Shown here in pieces: positions 2,723 to 27,246 of a stretch of 64,000 nucleotides of DNA. The stretch lies in contig NZ_JANZNR010000002.1 in assembly GCF_025153525.1 (NCBI RefSeq), positions 124,001 to 188,000 on the forward strand, written 5' to 3'. The stretch is from Psychroserpens sp. SPM9 (GTDB taxonomy: Bacteria; Bacteroidota; Bacteroidia; Flavobacteriales; Flavobacteriaceae). The translations under genes were made by a program, and so were the position numbers. Each line of letters begins with the position of its first letter. Position 1 is the stretch's first letter. Under the pieces are notes generated by a model that saw only the letters and a list, made by a program, of their open reading frames with translations, had not been told where the DNA came from and did no database searches.

Positions 2723-4354
2723 CTACAAATCTAGAGCCTTAACGCTCTCAATCCTATTACGCTCCAAAAAGGCATCAATCGTTTCAAAGTGTTCAATCAC
2801 ACGTTGGTCTTTAAACTCAAAAACTTTATTAGCCAAACCTTGCAGAAAATCACGATCGTGAGACACCAGTATCAGTGTGCCATCAAAATCCTGAAGTGCT
2901 TCTTTTAAAACGTCTTTCGATTTTAAATCCAGATGGTTTGTTGGCTCATCGAGAATCAATACATTCACAGGTTCGAGCAATAACTTCACCATCGCTAATC
3001 GGGTTTTTTCACCTCCCGACAATACACTTACTTTTTTATCAATGTCGTCACCTTTAAACATAAAGCGACCCAAGATATTTTTAATTTGCGTTCGGATATC
3101 GCCTTTAGCAACCTCATCAACCGTTTGAAAAATACTAAAATTTTCATCTAATAAAGCGGCTTGATTTTGTGCAAAATACCCAACCTTTACATTATGTCCT
3201 AAGGTACAAGTCCCTTCTACATCTATTTCACCTAAAATGGCTTTAATCATGGTCGATTTCCCTTCACCATTACGCCCTACAAAACAGACTTTCTCGCCTC
3301 TGGCTATCGACATATTCGCATCGTTAAACACCACATGATCGCCATAGGATTTAGACACCTCTTTAACCGTTACAGGATAATCTCCCGAACGTTGTGTGGG
3401 CGGAAAACGTAATTTTAAAGCCGAAGTATCAATATCATCAATTTCAATAATATCCAATTTTTCAAGCATGCGCTCTCGTGATGCTACTTGATTGGTTTTA
3501 GAATACGTGCCTTTAAAACGTTCGATAAATGCCATATTATCGGCAATCATTTTTTGCTGCTCTTGATAGGCTTTAATCTGGTGAGCGCGACGCTCTTCAC
3601 GCAATTGCAAATAATGAGTGTACTTGGCCTTGTAATCGTAAATGCGTCCCATAGTGACTTCAATCGTACGATTGGTAATACTATCAATAAAGGCTCTGTC
3701 GTGCGAAATGACAACAACGGCATTGGCTTTATTCACTAAAAAGTCTTCGAGCCAGATTACCGATTCAATATCAATATGATTGGTAGGCTCATCTAACAAA
3801 ATCAAATCCGGCTTTTGAAGTAAAATTTTGGCCAGTTCAATCCGCATACGCCAGCCTCCAGAAAACTCGCTGGTTGGTCTGGTAAAATCGGTTGGCTTAA
3901 ATCCTAAACCTTTCAGGGCTTTTTCAACTTCGGCATCGTAATTCACTTCTTCTAAAGCGTAATACTTCTCTCCTAAATCAGATACGCGTTCGATGATTTT
4001 CATATAATCCTCCGACTCATAATCGGTTCGGGTTTCCAGCTGCTTGTTTAAGGCGTCCATTTCATCACGCATGGCAAACACATGACTAAAAGCTTTAGAC
4101 GCTTCATCAAAAACAGTCGTATTGTCTTCCGTTAATAAATGCTGAGGCAAATAAGCTATAACGGCATCTTTAGGCGTTCTTACATGACCACGCGTTGCCT
4201 TTTGAACACCAGCAATAATTTTCATCATGGTCGATTTTCCGGCGCCATTCTTTCCCATTAAGGCAATTTTATCATCGGCATTTATGGTAAAAGACACCTC
4301 ACTAAAAAGTGTTTGTCCGCTAAATTCTACCGCTAAATTATCTACTGAAATCAT
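2723..4354 (-). CDS. ABC-F family ATP-binding protein
   Basis: This 543-aa soluble protein holds two ABC ATPase domains in tandem and no membrane segment, which defines the ABC-F family. Domain 1 has Walker A GKNGAGKST, signature SGGWRMR and Walker B LILLDEPTNHID. Domain 2 has GRNGEGKST, LSGGEKTR and VLILDEPTNHLD. The charged linker between them (about residues 240-320) matches the ABC-F interdomain linker that reaches toward the ribosomal peptidyl-transferase centre. Members act on stalled or initiating ribosomes; some confer antibiotic resistance by target protection. Which subfamily this belongs to cannot be fixed by eye. It stands alone, transcribed divergently from rplM. Confidence 0.93.
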   Translation of the reverse strand: MISVDNLAVEFSGQTLFSEVSFTINADDKIALMGKNGAGKSTMMKIIAGVQKATRGHVRTPKDAVIAYLPQHLLTEDNTTVFDEASKAFSHVFAMRDEMDALNKQLETRTDYESEDYMKIIERVSDLGEKYYALEEVNYDAEVEKALKGLGFKPTDFTRPTSEFSGGWRMRIELAKILLQKPDLILLDEPTNHIDIESVIWLEDFLVNKANAVVVISHDRAFIDSITNRTIEVTMGRIYDYKAKYTHYLQLREERRAHQIKAYQEQQKMIADNMAFIERFKGTYSKTNQVASRERMLEKLDIIEIDDIDTSALKLRFPPTQRSGDYPVTVKEVSKSYGDHVVFNDANMSIARGEKVCFVGRNGEGKSTMIKAILGEIDVEGTCTLGHNVKVGYFAQNQAALLDENFSIFQTVDEVAKGDIRTQIKNILGRFMFKGDDIDKKVSVLSGGEKTRLAMVKLLLEPVNVLILDEPTNHLDLKSKDVLKEALQDFDGTLILVSHDRDFLQGLANKVFEFKDQRVIEHFETIDAFLERNRIESVKALDL

Positions 4355-21763: not shown

Positions 21764-22120
21764 AGCTTCGACAACCAAAAGGATGAGCTGCGCTGATCCT
21801 AATTGACTATGCTGGTAATACATCGTATTAGCAAACTCTCGTTTGCTTATGAAAACATCCCCATAAATTTACTGAAGCGAGCTTCGATATTAAATAGGTT
21901 TAGCTACGCTGATCCCAATTGGCTATGCTGGTAATACATCGTATTGGCAAACTCACGTTTGCTTATGAAAACATCCCCATAAATTTACTGAAGCGAGCTT
22001 CGATATTAATAGGATTAGCTACGCTGATCCCAATTGACTATGCTGATAATACATCGTATTAGCAAACTCTCGTTTGCTTACGAAAACATCCCCATAAATT
22101 TACTGAAGCGAGCTTCGATA
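21764..22120. repeat. tandem repeat, about 116-bp unit, three copies plus a 10-bp start of a fourth
   Basis: The units are 21764-21879, 21880-21995 and 21996-22110, each beginning AGCTTCGA and ending CTGAAGCG, then AGCTTCGATA at 22111-22120. Units 2 and 3 are most alike in the first third; units 1 and 3 share GACTATGCTG and TTAGCAAACTCTCG, where unit 2 has single changes. Each unit holds short inverted repeats (TAATAC/GTATTA, GCAAAC/GTTTGC, GAAG/CTTC) and the string GAAAACATCCCCATAAATTTA. No open reading frame runs through the array. It ends directly at the inverted copy of that string, beside tRNA-Ser. Confidence 0.9.
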
Positions 22121-22139
22121 AATTTATGGGGATGTTTTC
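22082..22139 (-). repeat. long inverted repeat directly downstream of tRNA-Ser
   Basis: Positions 22082-22102 and 22119-22139 are perfect 21-bp inverted copies, with a 16-nt loop that can itself pair (GAAG/CTTC). On the tRNA strand it starts about 10 nt after the tRNA 3' end and finishes in TTTTC. It could therefore act as the tRNA terminator or 3' processing structure. The left arm is part of the third tandem unit. Confidence 0.8.
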
Positions 22140-22148
22140 ATGTATTCG

Positions 22149-22236
22149 CAGAGAGGAAGGGATTCGAACCCTCGATACCCTTTTGGAGTATACACACTTT
22201 CCAGGCGTGCGCCTTCGACCACTCGGCCACCTCTCT
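22149..22236 (-). tRNA. tRNA-Ser (anticodon GGA)
   Basis: The reverse strand gives an 88-nt tRNA: acceptor stem AGAGAGG/CCTCTCT, D-loop GCCGAGTGGTCGAAGGC, anticodon loop CTGGAAA (anticodon GGA, reading UCC and UCU), the long variable arm typical of tRNA-Ser, and a T-arm with GGTTCGAATCC. The discriminator base is G, as serine tRNAs require. CCA is not encoded. A TAtaTTTG box (22257-22250) lies 13 bp upstream. The 3' side abuts a long hairpin and a tandem repeat array. Confidence 0.97.
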
Positions 22237-24124: not shown

Positions 24125-24565
24125 ATGGAAACTCTACAAGAATACTTGTTAGATAAAGGGTATACAAAAGCAAAACTGAAGCTCACTAAAACCAATCATT
24201 TTGAGATAAAGGCGACTATTAATGGTGTTAAAGGACGGTTTATTTTAGACACAGGTGCATCGAGCTCATGTGTTGGTTTTGAAGCTATTGAGACCTTTAA
24301 GCTTATTGCTAAAGATTCAAACATCAAAGCTGCTGGTGCTGGCGCTACAGATATGCTAACGCAATTATCTAAAAAAAACACGCTTAAGATTGGCAAGTGG
24401 AAAAAAGATAAAGTTGCCCTGGTACTTTTTAATTTAACACATGTAAATACAGCTTTAACAACACATAAAGCCCAACCAGTTGACGGTATTATTGGGGCCG
24501 ATATTCTAAAAAAATCTAAAGCTATTATCGATTATGACCAAAAGTATTTATACTTAAAATTGTAA
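24125..24565 (+). CDS. single-domain retropepsin-like aspartic protease
   Basis: This 146-aa protein has one copy of the clan AA aspartic protease fold: the catalytic motif DTGAS in RFILDTGASSSCVG (about 40-52) and the downstream hydrophobic glycine motif GIIGADIL (about 118-125). Such one-domain enzymes must dimerise, like retroviral proteases, to form a full active site. There is no signal peptide or membrane helix, so it should act in the cytoplasm. Substrates are unknown. It is transcribed alone, divergently from tatD and ahead of the response regulator, with 67 bp between them. Confidence 0.82.
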   Translation: METLQEYLLDKGYTKAKLKLTKTNHFEIKATINGVKGRFILDTGASSSCVGFEAIETFKLIAKDSNIKAAGAGATDMLTQLSKKNTLKIGKWKKDKVALVLFNLTHVNTALTTHKAQPVDGIIGADILKKSKAIIDYDQKYLYLKL

Positions 24566-24632: not shown

Positions 24633-25268
24633 ATGCCTACGTCGATTATTACAGCAGACGATCATCCTCTTATTCTTAAAGGTCTCAATGACTACCTTTT
24701 AGAAAAACAATTTAATGTTATTGCCAGTGCAAAAAATGGTAAAGAAGCCTTTACACTTATTAATGCACACCAGCCTGATATTGCCATTTTAGATATTCAA
24801 ATGCCAATACTAACGGGTTTACAAGTTGCTGAAAAATGTAAAACTGAAGGCTTACATACCAAAATTATTATCATCACATTTGAAAAAAGTGAAGAGATCT
24901 ATAATAAAGCGAAATCTTTAGGCATATATGGTTACATTCTAAAAGAGTTTGCTATTGCCGAGATTGAACATTGTATTGCTTCTGTTCTAGAAGAACGTTC
25001 TTACTTTAGCCCTGAACTTATTGAGTATCTTGAAATAAAAGAAACTCCTGAAGAATTAAAAACACTAACTGATACTGAAATGAAAGTGTTGAAGCTCATT
25101 ACAGAAAACAAAACAGCTAAAGAGATTGCCGATGTTTTATACATATCGGCTCGTACAGTTGAAAAACATAAAAGTAATATTCGGAACAAGCTAAAACTAA
25201 AATCGAATGCAAATAGCTTTGTATTATTTGCCAAAGAACACGAAGAATTTTTATCAAAATATACGTAG
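24633..25268 (+). CDS. NarL/FixJ-type response regulator
   Basis: This 211-aa protein has a receiver domain (about 4-120) with the acidic pair Asp9-Asp10, phospho-acceptor Asp54 in AILDIQMP, and the conserved Lys in ILKEFA. Its LuxR-type helix-turn-helix (about 140-205) contains LTDTEMKVLKLITENKTAKEIA and SARTVEKHKSNIRNKL. It is a phosphorylation-dependent transcription factor; no sensor kinase is encoded next to it. Its stop codon lies inside the first of three identical palindromes of the 7-2-7 type bound by this family. It is therefore the natural candidate to control the three small transcription units that follow. Confidence 0.92.
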   Translation: MPTSIITADDHPLILKGLNDYLLEKQFNVIASAKNGKEAFTLINAHQPDIAILDIQMPILTGLQVAEKCKTEGLHTKIIIITFEKSEEIYNKAKSLGIYGYILKEFAIAEIEHCIASVLEERSYFSPELIEYLEIKETPEELKTLTDTEMKVLKLITENKTAKEIADVLYISARTVEKHKSNIRNKLKLKSNANSFVLFAKEHEEFLSKYT

Positions 25269-25308
25269 AACTACGTATTGTTTCCATAAGTTTTAATACT
25301 GATATTTG
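25261..25308 (+). promoter_or_regulatory. operator-promoter module A (7-2-7 palindrome plus promoter)
   Basis: The perfect palindrome ATACGTAG-AA-CTACGTAT (25261-25278) overlaps the response-regulator stop codon. Its right end merges with a -33 TTG (25278-25280). After exactly 20 bp comes GATATTTG (25301-25308), a -7 box off consensus at its first base. A weak core promoter with a site abutting -33 suggests activation. Copies B and C have the same spacing. Confidence 0.75.
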
Positions 25309-25311
25309 TCA

Positions 25312-25383
25312 AGCTATTAATTCTTATAGGGAGGATTAAAACAGAAGCCTTGGATTATTTTTTAATCCAGGGTTTCTTTATTT
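25312..25383 (+). ncRNA. candidate small RNA A
   Basis: The predicted transcript is about 70 nt. It begins near GCTATTAAT, contains a purine-rich GGGAGGATT, and ends in a terminator. The terminator is a 15-bp stem with two G-U pairs (25343-25357 with 25363-25377), a T5 loop, and the tail TTATTT. There is no start codon followed by a useful reading frame. The 5' end shares GCTATTAAT with RNA B at the same distance from the promoter box. Confidence 0.5.
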
Positions 25384-25414
25384 AGAGCCTCAACCCCTTC
25401 AAAAAAGTAAAAAA

Positions 25415-25462
25415 ATACGTAGAACTACGTATTGTTTACTATACAATTATTACCGAAGTTTG
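25415..25462 (+). promoter_or_regulatory. operator-promoter module B
   Basis: The same 18-nt palindrome (25415-25432; extendable to 20 nt here) is followed by TTG (25432-25434), 20 bp and GAAGTTTG (25455-25462). The sequences between the boxes differ from module A, while palindrome and spacing are conserved. Confidence 0.75.
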
Positions 25463-25465
25463 TAA

Positions 25466-25536
25466 CGCTATTAATCAATTTCCTTTTGAAAAGAAGGATC
25501 TAAAGCTCTAGGTCATTTTGGTTTAGAGCTTTTTTT
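25466..25536 (+). ncRNA. candidate small RNA B
   Basis: The predicted transcript is about 70 nt. It starts CGCTATTAAT, has the purine-rich AGAAGGATC, and ends at a 9-bp terminator stem (AAAGCTCTA 25502-25510 with TAGAGCTTT 25524-25532) followed by a T-run. No reading frame of note is present. Confidence 0.5.
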
Positions 25537-25593
25537 AATTTTAGTCTTCTTTAACCCTCCATTTTCTTCAAAAAGTTTAATAAAAATCAAAAT

Positions 25594-25641
25594 ATACGTA
25601 GAACTACGTATTGTTTGACATGCTTATAATGCCGAATTTTA
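25594..25641 (+). promoter_or_regulatory. operator-promoter module C
   Basis: This is the third copy of the palindrome (25594-25611), with TTG (25611-25613), 20 bp and GAATTTTA (25634-25641). The -7 box is the weakest of the three (last base A). Confidence 0.7.
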
Positions 25642-25644
25642 CAT

Positions 25645-25740
25645 CAGAGTTATTAAGATTAGAGGGATTTTTTTATAGTAACTCTATTAATTAATTAGGG
25701 TATATAAGGCTCTGGGTATTCTTAGTCCCAGAGCTTTATT
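25645..25740 (+). ncRNA. candidate small RNA or leader C
   Basis: This segment contains GTTATTAAG and the purine-rich AGAGGGAT, echoing RNAs A and B. It has a 7-bp stem (AGAGTTA 25648-25654 region with TAACTCT) and a terminator-like hairpin GCTCTGGG/CCCAGAGC (25709-25716 with 25727-25734) followed by TTTATT. Read-through would reach the 36-aa peptide gene 37 nt further on, so it could be a leader or attenuator. Confidence 0.45.
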
Positions 25741-25776
25741 CAAAAGGCAGAAATTTTAATTTAAAACAATAAAAAA

Positions 25777-25887
25777 ATGGAAACGATGAAAAACAAACAA
25801 AGCTATACCAATAAGCTATTTATTGCAGGCTTAATCTTTAGTGCCATTTTAATCATATCAATTAACATTCTTGTTAATTTTTTTTAG
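25777..25887 (+). CDS. 36-aa single-helix membrane peptide
   Basis: The frame encodes 36 residues: a short charged N-terminus (METMKNKQSYTNK) and one continuous hydrophobic helix (LFIAGLIFSAILIISINIL) ending VNFF. It is preceded by an A-rich stretch typical of Bacteroidetes translation starts and followed by its own bidirectional terminator. A second in-frame ATG lies three codons in. No family is recognised. Its place after module C suggests expression under the same regulator, possibly as a small membrane-acting or kinase-modulating peptide; that role is a guess. The frame is short enough that chance cannot be fully excluded. Confidence 0.55.
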   Translation: METMKNKQSYTNKLFIAGLIFSAILIISINILVNFF

Positions 25888-25916
25888 TTATTAGTTAGTT
25901 ATTTTTTTTATTAGGG

Positions 25917-25953
25917 AAAAAAGCCCAATTCAAACTTTGAATTGGGCTTTTTT
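25917..25953. terminator. bidirectional terminator between the peptide gene and odhB
   Basis: AAGCCCAATTCAA is mirrored by TTGAATTGGGCTT (25921-25949, tight loop), with an A-run on the left and a T-run on the right. It therefore serves both converging units. Confidence 0.85.
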
Positions 25954-25977
25954 ATAATTGTTAAACAATGTTTAAGC

Positions 25978-27246
25978 TTACATTTCTAAAGCTTTCTTCA
26001 CATCATTATTCATTAATAACTCTTCAGGGTTTTCAAGTGCTTCTTTAACTGCGACTAAGAATCCAACAGATTCTTTCCCATCAATAATTCTATGATCATA
26101 AGATAAGGCCACATACATGATTGGTCTAATCTCTACTTTTCCGTCAATTGCAACTGGACGCTCAACAATATTATGCATTCCTAAGATTCCGCTTTGTGGC
26201 GGATTGATAATTGGAGTCGATAACATACTTCCAAATACACCTCCATTAGAAATGGTAAAGGTTCCTCCTGTCATTTCATCAACAGTTATTTGTCCGTCAC
26301 GAGCACGAATCGCCAAACGTTTTACTTCAGATTCAACGCCTCTAAAACTTAAATTTTCAGCATTTCTAATTACTGGGACCATTAATCCTTTAGGACCAGA
26401 TACTGCTATAGAAATATCAACAAAGTCATAGCTCAACATTTCTTTGCCATCAATCATTGAATTTACGGCAGGATATAATTTTAATGCACGAACTACAGCT
26501 AATGTAAAGAAACTCATAAACCCAAGACCAACGCCATGTTTCGCTTTAAAGTCTTCTTTATATTGTTTACGTAATTCAAAAATAGGCGACATATCAACTT
26601 CGTTAAACGTCGTTAACATGGCAGTTGTGTTTTTTGCTTCAACCAAACGCTCGGCTACCTTACGACGTAACATAGACATTTTGCTTCTCGATGTCCCTCG
26701 GTTTCCACCTGTTGGTGTTCCCATTGAAGGTACAGCATTCACAGCGTCATCTTTAGTAATTCGTCCGTCCCTTCCTGTTCCCGAAACTGAAGAAGACTCG
26801 ATGCCTTTTTCGTCTAATATCTTTTTAGCTGCCGGACTCGCAACACCTGAAGCGTAGGTGTCTTTTGCTGGGTTTGGTGCCTTTTCATGGTTCGATGAAT
26901 TAGGTGTCGCTTTTTGATCTTTAGCTAAATCCTTTTCAGCATTGGTATTACCACCTTCATCGCCTCCACCATAAGTAGCTGGTGCATCGTCTCCACCTTC
27001 AGGTTTAGTTGCACTTGTATCAATTAAGCATACAATTGCTCCAACCTCAACAGCATCACCTTCTTCAGCTTTAAGAGTAATCGTTCCGCTTGCTTCAGCA
27101 GGTAATTCTAATGTAGCTTTATCACTATCGACTTCAGCAATGGCTTGATCTTTTTCAACATAATCGCCATCGGCAACTAGCCATTCTGCAATTTCTACTT
27201 CTGTGATTGATTCTCCTGGAGAAGGAACTTTCATTTCTAAAATCAT
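25978..27246 (-). CDS. odhB: 2-oxoglutarate dehydrogenase E2 (dihydrolipoyllysine succinyltransferase)
   Basis: This 422-aa protein has the three E2 parts in order: a lipoyl domain (1-80, with the lipoylated Lys in [10 protein letters not shown]), a peripheral-subunit binding domain (about 135-175, [12 protein letters not shown]...[12 protein letters not shown]), and the acyltransferase core with the catalytic His in SYDHRIIDG near 380. The linker between them is Gly/Asn/Pro-rich and flexible. It transfers succinyl groups to CoA in the TCA cycle. It follows odhA by 48 bp on the same strand, so E1 and E2 form one operon; E3 is not in the window. Confidence 0.95.

Follow-up and report, generated by a model that had tools for sequence, protein, structure and literature searches.

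A response regulator gene followed by an array of conserved, structured RNAs in Psychroserpens and other Flavobacteriaceae: a probable signal-to-RNA relay

We analysed a 64,000-nucleotide (nt) stretch of Psychroserpens sp. SPM9 (contig NZ_JANZNR010000002.1, positions 124,001 to 188,000), hereafter the window. It contains a gene for a response regulator (RR) of the NarL/FixJ family, followed by three copies of one operator and promoter module, each leading into a short RNA of a single structured family. We consider it likely that this arrangement is a signal-to-RNA relay, in which the RR activates sibling small RNAs (sRNAs) that act in trans. The array and its spacing are conserved, its RNAs covary, its operators change together with the regulator, and the same RNA recurs behind an unrelated regulator. 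The initial annotation, made from the letters of the window, had proposed a regulator with three sibling sRNAs. This interpretation is supported, with additions: the RNAs are not confined to the RR, the array closes with a conserved small hydrophobic protein, and part of the third module may serve as the leader of that protein. The array comprises the following features.

24633–25268, forward strand: RR of the NarL/FixJ family, 211 amino acids (aa), with receiver and GerE/LuxR helix-turn-helix (HTH) domains (Pfam; 22-row same-genus alignment)
25261–25278, no strand: operator 1, overlapping the RR stop codon (sequence, motif search)
25278–25308, forward strand: promoter 1, TTG (-33) and GATATTTG (-7) (sequence; geometry over 165 modules)
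25313–25382, forward strand: sRNA 1, type A, 5' end predicted, terminator 25343–25377 (covariance model R1, folding, terminator scan)
25415–25432, no strand: operator 2 (sequence, motif search)
25432–25462, forward strand: promoter 2, TTG and GAAGTTTG (sequence; geometry over 165 modules)
25467–25537, forward strand: sRNA 2, type B, 5' end predicted, terminator 25502–25532 (R1, folding, terminator scan)
25594–25611, no strand: operator 3 (sequence, motif search)
25611–25641, forward strand: promoter 3, TTG and GAATTTTA (sequence; geometry over 165 modules)
25645–25742, forward strand: sRNA 3, type C with two UAUUAA..AGGG units, predicted 5' end, weak T-run after the hairpin at 25705–25737 (folding, R1)
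25777–25887, forward strand: 36-aa small protein METMKNKQSYTNKLFIAGLIFSAILIISINILVNFF, one hydrophobic stretch, a membrane span by eye (similar open reading frames, ORFs, in other loci)

The array and its regulator

The 18-nt palindrome ATACGTAGAACTACGTAT occurs in three identical copies, at 25261, 25415 and 25594, and the RR stop codon (TAG, 25266–25268) lies within the first of them. NarL-type sites consist of two inverted heptamers in a 7-2-7 layout; the palindrome has this form (TACGTAG-AA-CTACGTA, with outer TAC/GTA), and is a predicted binding site. Each copy runs directly into TTG, followed by exactly 20 bp and then by the -7 box. These features, and the motifs G[CT]TATTAA and GGGAGGAT, AGAAGGAT or AGAGGGAT of the three RNAs, were found as first described. 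No further palindrome match with up to 3 mismatches was present in the window, and shuffles of the window yielded a mean of 0.08 matches, none of the 100 reaching the 6 strand-wise matches observed. The rest of the genome contained one further exact TACGTAGNNCTACGTA (C11:834451; reversed control pattern, 0), and with 2 mismatches allowed the excess disappeared (7 matches vs 8 for the control).

The RR was assigned by Pfam (Response_reg, 1.3e-24; GerE, 3.1e-15); in NCBIfam, neither the NarL model nor any other equivalog shown was matched at its cutoff. Residues D9, D10, D54, T82 and K104 are unchanged in all 22 aligned same-genus orthologues; we take D54 to be the phospho-acceptor aspartate and the other four to be the catalytic residues of the receiver. 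Close orthologues (E 1.1e-86 or better) were found in 22 of 23 same-genus genomes, that of the window included. The best match in the remaining genome (G011) reached just 5e-19, corresponds to a non-orthologue and has no palindrome beside it with up to 3 mismatches. All 22 orthologues (L011–L032, the window's included) have two to four adjoining palindromes with at most 2 mismatches.

The wider sample consisted of 80 named RR loci, the best 80 of 416 matches, or 81 loci with the window. Psychroserpens provided most of the closest matches, and the sample also covered Gelidibacter, Winogradskyella, Mangrovimonas, Formosa, Xanthomarina, Bizionia, Algibacter, Tamlana, Oceanihabitans and others. 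Near-palindromes, defined as TACG-N8-CGTA with symmetry at 6 or more of the 8 positions, numbered 173 in the 93,150 bp adjoining the RR genes and 1 in 805,651 bp elsewhere. At least one was present in 73 of the 81 loci (72 of the 80 named loci); seven of the remaining eight had, at up to 2 mismatches, a variant of lower symmetry (for example TACGTAGAAGTGCGTA), and L114 had a single site with 3 mismatches. The first operator lies over the RR stop codon, as in the window, in 27 of the 81 loci, and 3–6 nt past it in a further 34. Among 299 sampled genomes of the family, 51 contained the exact palindrome pattern and 2 the reversed control.

The geometry of the modules was examined in 165 modules from 71 loci. 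For 162 of them the distance from the palindrome to the start of the -7 box, TTT[GA], is exactly 27 nt, and TTG follows the palindrome immediately in 133. The RNA start (CTATTA, 122 modules) is located 35 nt past the palindrome in 104 cases and 36 nt past it in 12. In 145 of the 165 modules there is a hairpin with a T-rich tail and a folding energy of -8 kcal/mol or lower; these include 90 of the 94 modules preceding another module and 55 of the 71 last modules. A lack of conserved palindromes and spacing beside orthologous regulators, which would have refuted the initial interpretation, was thus not observed. If the G of GCTATTAAT is +1, the operator would be centred at -43.5, a class-II activator position. 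GCTATTAAT was also considered as a part of the promoter, and this was ruled out: it belongs to the RNA, because several genes under an identical operator and promoter (L008, L151, L097 and L098) lack it.

In most loci the array ends with a small ORF of 33–45 aa with one hydrophobic stretch (about 77 of 81 loci; the automatic pick gave 78, with the wrong ORF in L050, L068, L071, L086 and L104, of which the first four do have the right one). Comparison of 18 versions of 36 aa gave a synonymous fraction of 0.781 vs 0.196 expected (single-base codon differences; the pairs are non-independent). Searches of Pfam and NCBIfam with the small protein gave no match. Some loci (L065 5762, L074 5757, L088 5780 and L091 5773) have an additional hydrophobic ORF of this type in the unusually long gap that separates modules 1 and 2. 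In L097 and L098 a single operator drives the small ORF directly and a TPR-HisKA_3 kinase precedes the RR (Pfam on L098 only); these loci may represent a simpler form of the circuit.

Operators and regulators change together. Some loci carry TACGTAANNTTACGTA or a near form (A class) instead of TACGTAGNNCTACGTA (G class), and operators of one locus share their core in 116 of 145 pairs (shuffles: mean 76, maximum 91 in 1000). A-class operators were accompanied by "QN" before L-[LI]-I-W at the RR C-terminus in 15 of 15 loci vs 0 of 52 for the G class (Fisher 2.9e-15), a count that omits 14 loci of neither class and uses a loose G class (a G in position 7 or a C in position 10) including some variant sites. 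On a tree of the receiver domain only, many forks of which are unresolved, the operator-class label needs 9 changes (shuffles: mean 13.8), 3 of them forced by well-supported branches. One Psychroserpens locus (L057) has a QN-type HTH unlike that of its near relatives, with all three operators changed to match, and looks like a case of a swapped DNA-binding domain.

The operator also occurs outside the arrays. The copy at C11:834451 (L008 8452) precedes a gene of the metallo-beta-lactamase fold (L008 6708–8399, reverse strand), adjacent to a patatin-like gene (by eye), and a similar metallo-beta-lactamase-fold gene with an identical operator and promoter was observed in another genus (L151, G151). 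In G151 (L145–L156) the palindrome is mostly part of a dispersed ~100-bp repeat (..TAACTTCGTTTAACTATCGATATAGATAATTG..CCATATCG) that stands before unrelated genes, and G221 (L162, L163) has similar copies. Five (L034–L036, L038, L039) of seven RR paralogues (L034–L040; 40–48% identity) have border near-palindromes related to TACGTAG..CTACGTA (1–3 mismatches), and these paralogues may have operators of their own.

The RNA family and its other regulators

The conserved parts of the RNA are, in order, an unpaired 5' GCUAUUAAU, UUAGGGAG in a small AGGG-bearing hairpin, and the terminator. In type B RNAs, CCUUU..AAAGG replaces the AGGG hairpin, and type C RNAs, together with several Winogradskyella first modules, contain two UAUUAAU..AGGG units per RNA. 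The three RNAs of the window fold more stably than their shuffles (z -5.3, -2.8 and -4.1 for sRNAs 1–3; shuffles as stable, 0, 2 and 0 of 200). The scanner recovered the terminators of the first two RNAs and missed the third hairpin (~25705–25737), which was seen in folding and has a weak T-run (TTTATT). sRNA 3 may double as a leader of the small ORF.

An alignment not fitted to structure (A2; 39 of 56 type-A RNAs), which misplaces hairpin 1 in short forms, displayed a 14-pair terminator hairpin, with compensatory changes on both sides in 12 pairs. At E 0.01, covariance model R1 (68 positions, 21 pairs) matched 181 places spread over 84 sources. It recognised 76 of the 80 named loci, missing L090, L096, L097 and L098, the first two of which still have a GCTATTAA module, and 42 of the 46 loci giving no training sequence, some of them close kin of training loci. 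Within the window, R1 scored 64.3 bits for sRNA 1, the row of which belongs to the training set, and 42.1 bits for sRNA 2, which is outside it; sRNA 3 was matched in its 3' part only (25683–25742, 41.6 bits). Alignment A3, in which one row (L058) begins at a wrong position, did not enter the counts. In the structure-fitted alignment A4 (147 distinct rows), 91.5% of cells pair vs 80.9% when shuffled, changes on both sides were found in 19 of the 21 pairs, and slid control structures dropped to 27–55%. The search of related genomes for covariation, suggested in the initial annotation, identified the RNAs as one covarying family.

R1 was positive in 86 of the 299 sampled family genomes and in 71 of 236 genera, under strict filters with which weak matches are lost. 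A class-wide draw gave matches in 2 of 295 genomes, that of the window and one marginal genome of the same order, and none in eight other same-family genomes shown there. In 800 kb of the window's own genome, R1 gave no match with E under 0.05 (best 0.068). No Rfam 15 family reached its gathering threshold on the RNAs of the window, and eight further loci yielded tRNA only, plus one sub-threshold match. The best sub-threshold candidate in the window, Atu_C9 (25.7 bits, cutoff 40, E 2.5e-4), was rejected; it is located at 25920–26000 on the other strand, on the terminator and sucB end.

The same RNA was found behind other regulators. We inspected 20 distal regions chosen from R1 matches far from the RR, and 7 chosen from matches to a second palindrome, so the counts are not frequencies. 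A 256-aa PAS-LuxR protein (PAS_3 and GerE by Pfam in the own-genome copy) with palindrome TACTCAANTTGAGTA was present in 14 regions of the first set and 6 of the second. In all 20 regions with this protein, the RNA start lies 50 nt downstream of the beginning of TACTCAANTTGAGTA (49 nt in L216), and its distance from the operator end equals that in the RR arrays. TACTCAANTTGAGTA is located -12 to +89 nt from the PAS-LuxR stop codon in 19 of 20 regions, and 2.3 kb off in L219. The own-genome copy (C36, L215) has the PAS-LuxR gene at 3241–4011, the palindrome at 4023 and an RNA beginning GUUAUUAAUUUACAUAGGG; this RNA (E 0.45 with R1) and those of L216 and L218 were recognised from place and motif only. 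The pattern TACTCAANTTGAGTATTG, with at most one mismatch, was present in 22 of 24 chosen genomes (mostly R1-positive; control, 1 of 24), and part of these sites were checked for an RNA. In one genome (G001, L217 2052) the operator TACTCAATTTGAGTA precedes a protein-coding gene with no RNA seen, and the PAS-LuxR palindrome may also have protein targets.

Further palindromes were associated with the RNA. In L196 and L211, RNA copies lie 48–50 nt after TACGG-N4-CCGTA (third palindrome) and behind a response-regulator-like gene, which adjoins a kinase-like gene (by eye) and which in L211 scored 24.2 bits for Response_reg, below the cutoff of 30.2, with no HTH family. Six other stretches of the TACGG-N4-CCGTA type occur without RNA on that strand of L196. 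An extra RNA lies 50–51 nt after AGGTA-N4-TACCT in 8 of the 81 RR arrays, all from Psychroserpens or near kin. None of these palindromes was in view of the distal RNA copies L199, L206 (by eye), L207 and L208.

Mechanism and rival explanations

We propose that an RR dimer would bind each palindrome and activate, rather than repress, the adjacent weak -33/-7 promoter, and that each promoter would yield an RNA of 60–100 nt closed by an intrinsic terminator. The siblings would act in trans through the unpaired 5' GCUAUUAAU and the AGGG-bearing hairpin, as their conservation suggests, most likely by pairing with mRNAs and otherwise by titrating an RNA-binding protein. Multiple copies would raise the dose of RNA and let the siblings diverge, and the small hydrophobic peptide from the array end would perhaps provide feedback. 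Wired separately to the PAS-LuxR regulator, and probably to more, the RNA family could be a hub for several signals.

Several observations weigh against this proposal. L097 and L098 contain the RR, the operator and the small protein without the RNA, so the RR can function without it. No cognate kinase for the RR was found in a search of the window's own genome; the best relative there of the TPR-HisKA_3 kinase of L097/L098 was discarded, as it ends in an HTH-like region and lacks the kinase part by eye. Alignment A4 is fitted to the structure that it tests, the QN association was counted post hoc in the data where it was noticed, among related and thus non-independent loci, and the PAS-LuxR copies of L215 (own genome), L216 and L218 are weak in R1 (18.6, 18.8 and 17.8 bits; E 0.43–0.62). 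Finally, an underpowered pairing scan (RNAduplex; six probes against 638 start regions, about one fifth of the genome) gave no clear excess at start regions, with two of the six probes beating their shuffles. The best 1% for the tail probe was -10.98, vs -10.33 (standard deviation, sd, 0.30) for shuffles and -10.37 for ORFs (~2 sd), and for the probe from window RNA 1 it was -19.87, vs -17.68 (sd 0.55) and -19.65, that is, about 4 sd over shuffles and equal in ORF interiors. The other four probes were within about 1 sd of their own shuffles.

For the action of the RNAs, we favour mRNA pairing, the case for which we regard as evenly balanced, because the most conserved part of the RNA is a single-stranded 5' end, as described for FopS (PMC11697453). 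A smaller, if still substantial, likelihood is assigned to titration of an RNA-binding protein by a sponge of the Gac/Rsm kind, with another protein in the place of CsrA and a bipartite UAUUAAU...UAGGG as its site. The AGGG in or beside a hairpin loop, the two units per RNA in type C and several Winogradskyella RNAs, the lack of clear excess in start-codon pairing, and the resemblance of a NarL-type RR with sibling RNAs to GacA and RsmX/Y/Z would fit such a sponge. However, most listed RNAs hold one unit, type B RNAs often lack AGGG, and three RNA-binding proteins were not found where they were sought: CsrA (PF02599) and RRM_1 (PF00076) in the window's own genome (0 of 1 each), and Hfq (PF17209) in 19 genomes of relatives (0 of 19), with positive controls for all three. 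A CsrA sponge, an RRM/RbpB sponge and an Hfq-type sRNA were accordingly rejected, and a mechanism of the RsmY/Z or Hfq type finds no support here. A possible antisense pairing of type A with type B RNAs was inspected visually and left aside.

It is unlikely that the modules, instead of being free sRNAs, are cis-acting leaders or attenuators of downstream genes, chiefly the one for the small hydrophobic protein. In most loci the small ORF does come after the last module, the T-run of the last terminator in the window is weak, and in L097/L098 the operator drives the ORF directly. Furthermore, 16 of the 71 last modules lack a strong terminator, 8 with and 8 without a CTATTA start, and the RNA motif thus occurs in leaders read into an ORF (e.g., L060, L075, L112 and L115). 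Against this, 94 of the 165 modules precede another module, 90 of these having a strong terminator hairpin, and 19 of the 20 RNA copies behind PAS-LuxR had no similar small ORF within 700 nt, the remaining copy (L212) having a doubtful candidate. A role of the palindromes as decoy or autoregulatory sites that buffer the RR, with the RNAs as by-products, seems very improbable. Several sites do adjoin the RR gene, and its stop codon is often overlapped by the first of them, but conservation and covariation extend to the RNA sequence itself, which is also found behind an unrelated regulator whose palindrome is unrelated too.

We propose more tentatively, and with somewhat more doubt than conviction, that much of the Flavobacteriaceae uses the RNA family as a common output hub. 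It would be fed by several regulators, of which two are clear and a third or fourth probable, each having a palindrome of its own at the same fixed distance and an RNA copy behind its gene. The hub would work without Hfq, CsrA or an RRM protein, through UAUUAAU...UAGGG read by an RNA-binding protein or a conserved set of mRNAs.

Genomic surroundings, related systems and significance

Two further features of the window flank the array.

24125–24565, forward strand: retropepsin-like aspartyl protease gene, syntenic upstream neighbour of the RR (Pfam Asp_protease_2)
25917–25953, no strand: hairpin of an intrinsic terminator, separating the small ORF from the sucB-like gene (terminator scan)

A retropepsin-like homologue lies upstream of the RR in 79 of the 80 loci, and its membership of the circuit is putative. 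The gene downstream of the array in 74 of the 80 loci is, presumably, sucB/odhB-like. Elsewhere in the window (21803–22130), three nearly identical ORFs (..HRISKLSFAYENIPINLLKRASI..), about 116 bp apart and beside a tRNA at 22149–22236, suggest a tandem DNA repeat.

In the Gac/Rsm system, GacA drives RsmX/Y/Z, which titrate CsrA. The array shares with it an RR of the NarL/FixJ family, a palindromic site upstream of sibling sRNAs and GG-bearing hairpins. However, CsrA was not found in the own genome, the RR scored 82.7 bits against a cutoff of 280 with the UvrY/SirA/GacA equivalog model NF007018, the RNA genes here stand in tandem right behind the regulator, and an unrelated regulator is wired to the same RNA. 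To our knowledge, the csRNAs of CiaRH in Streptococcus do not form an array abutting the regulator gene, and they differ from the RNAs described here in phylum, regulator type and operator form. The likeness is that one RR controls several homologous sRNAs (csRNAs/Ccn), partly in tandem (PMC11478796, PMC4211561). The Qrr sRNAs of Vibrio are likewise siblings integrating signals through an RR (PMC4211561), but here the RR is of the NarL type instead of LuxO, and Hfq was not found in 19 relatives. Rfam gave no Qrr match at the gathering score, and the sub-threshold match (20.1 bits, E 1) is at 25914–25995 on the other strand, off the RNAs.

Within the Bacteroidota, the FopS sRNAs of Bacteroides thetaiotaomicron, studied with RbpB, are a multicopy family in which a conserved 5' stretch is single-stranded and transcription ends at a Rho-independent terminator, and they pair near start codons (PMC11697453). 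The RNAs described here share the presence in several copies, the 5' stretch and the terminator, and differ in having an extra hairpin and operators of dedicated regulators, with RRM_1 not found in the own genome; they gave no threshold match to FopS, assuming that it is present in Rfam 15. Rfp18 of Flavobacterium psychrophilum is also a conserved structured sRNA of Flavobacteriaceae (PMC9723704, compared by description only), and the main text of that paper, as far as available, does not contain "response regulator", "LuxR" or "palindrom". No dedicated regulator is named for FopS or Rfp18 in the available parts of these two papers. We recognised no paper describing the present arrangement in a literature search that mostly excluded subscription papers.

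Regulator-driven sibling sRNAs are known from Proteobacteria and Firmicutes. For the structured RNA family described here, regulator, operator and promoter are legible from the sequence, and the family recurs behind an unrelated regulator. The natural series of co-changed operator and regulator pairs should be useful for studies of LuxR-type specificity. The array is also a convenient starting point for the study of post-transcriptional control in marine flavobacteria, in which Hfq (19 genomes), CsrA and RRM_1 (own genome) were not found and in which, if the hub exists, several signals would converge on one RNA.

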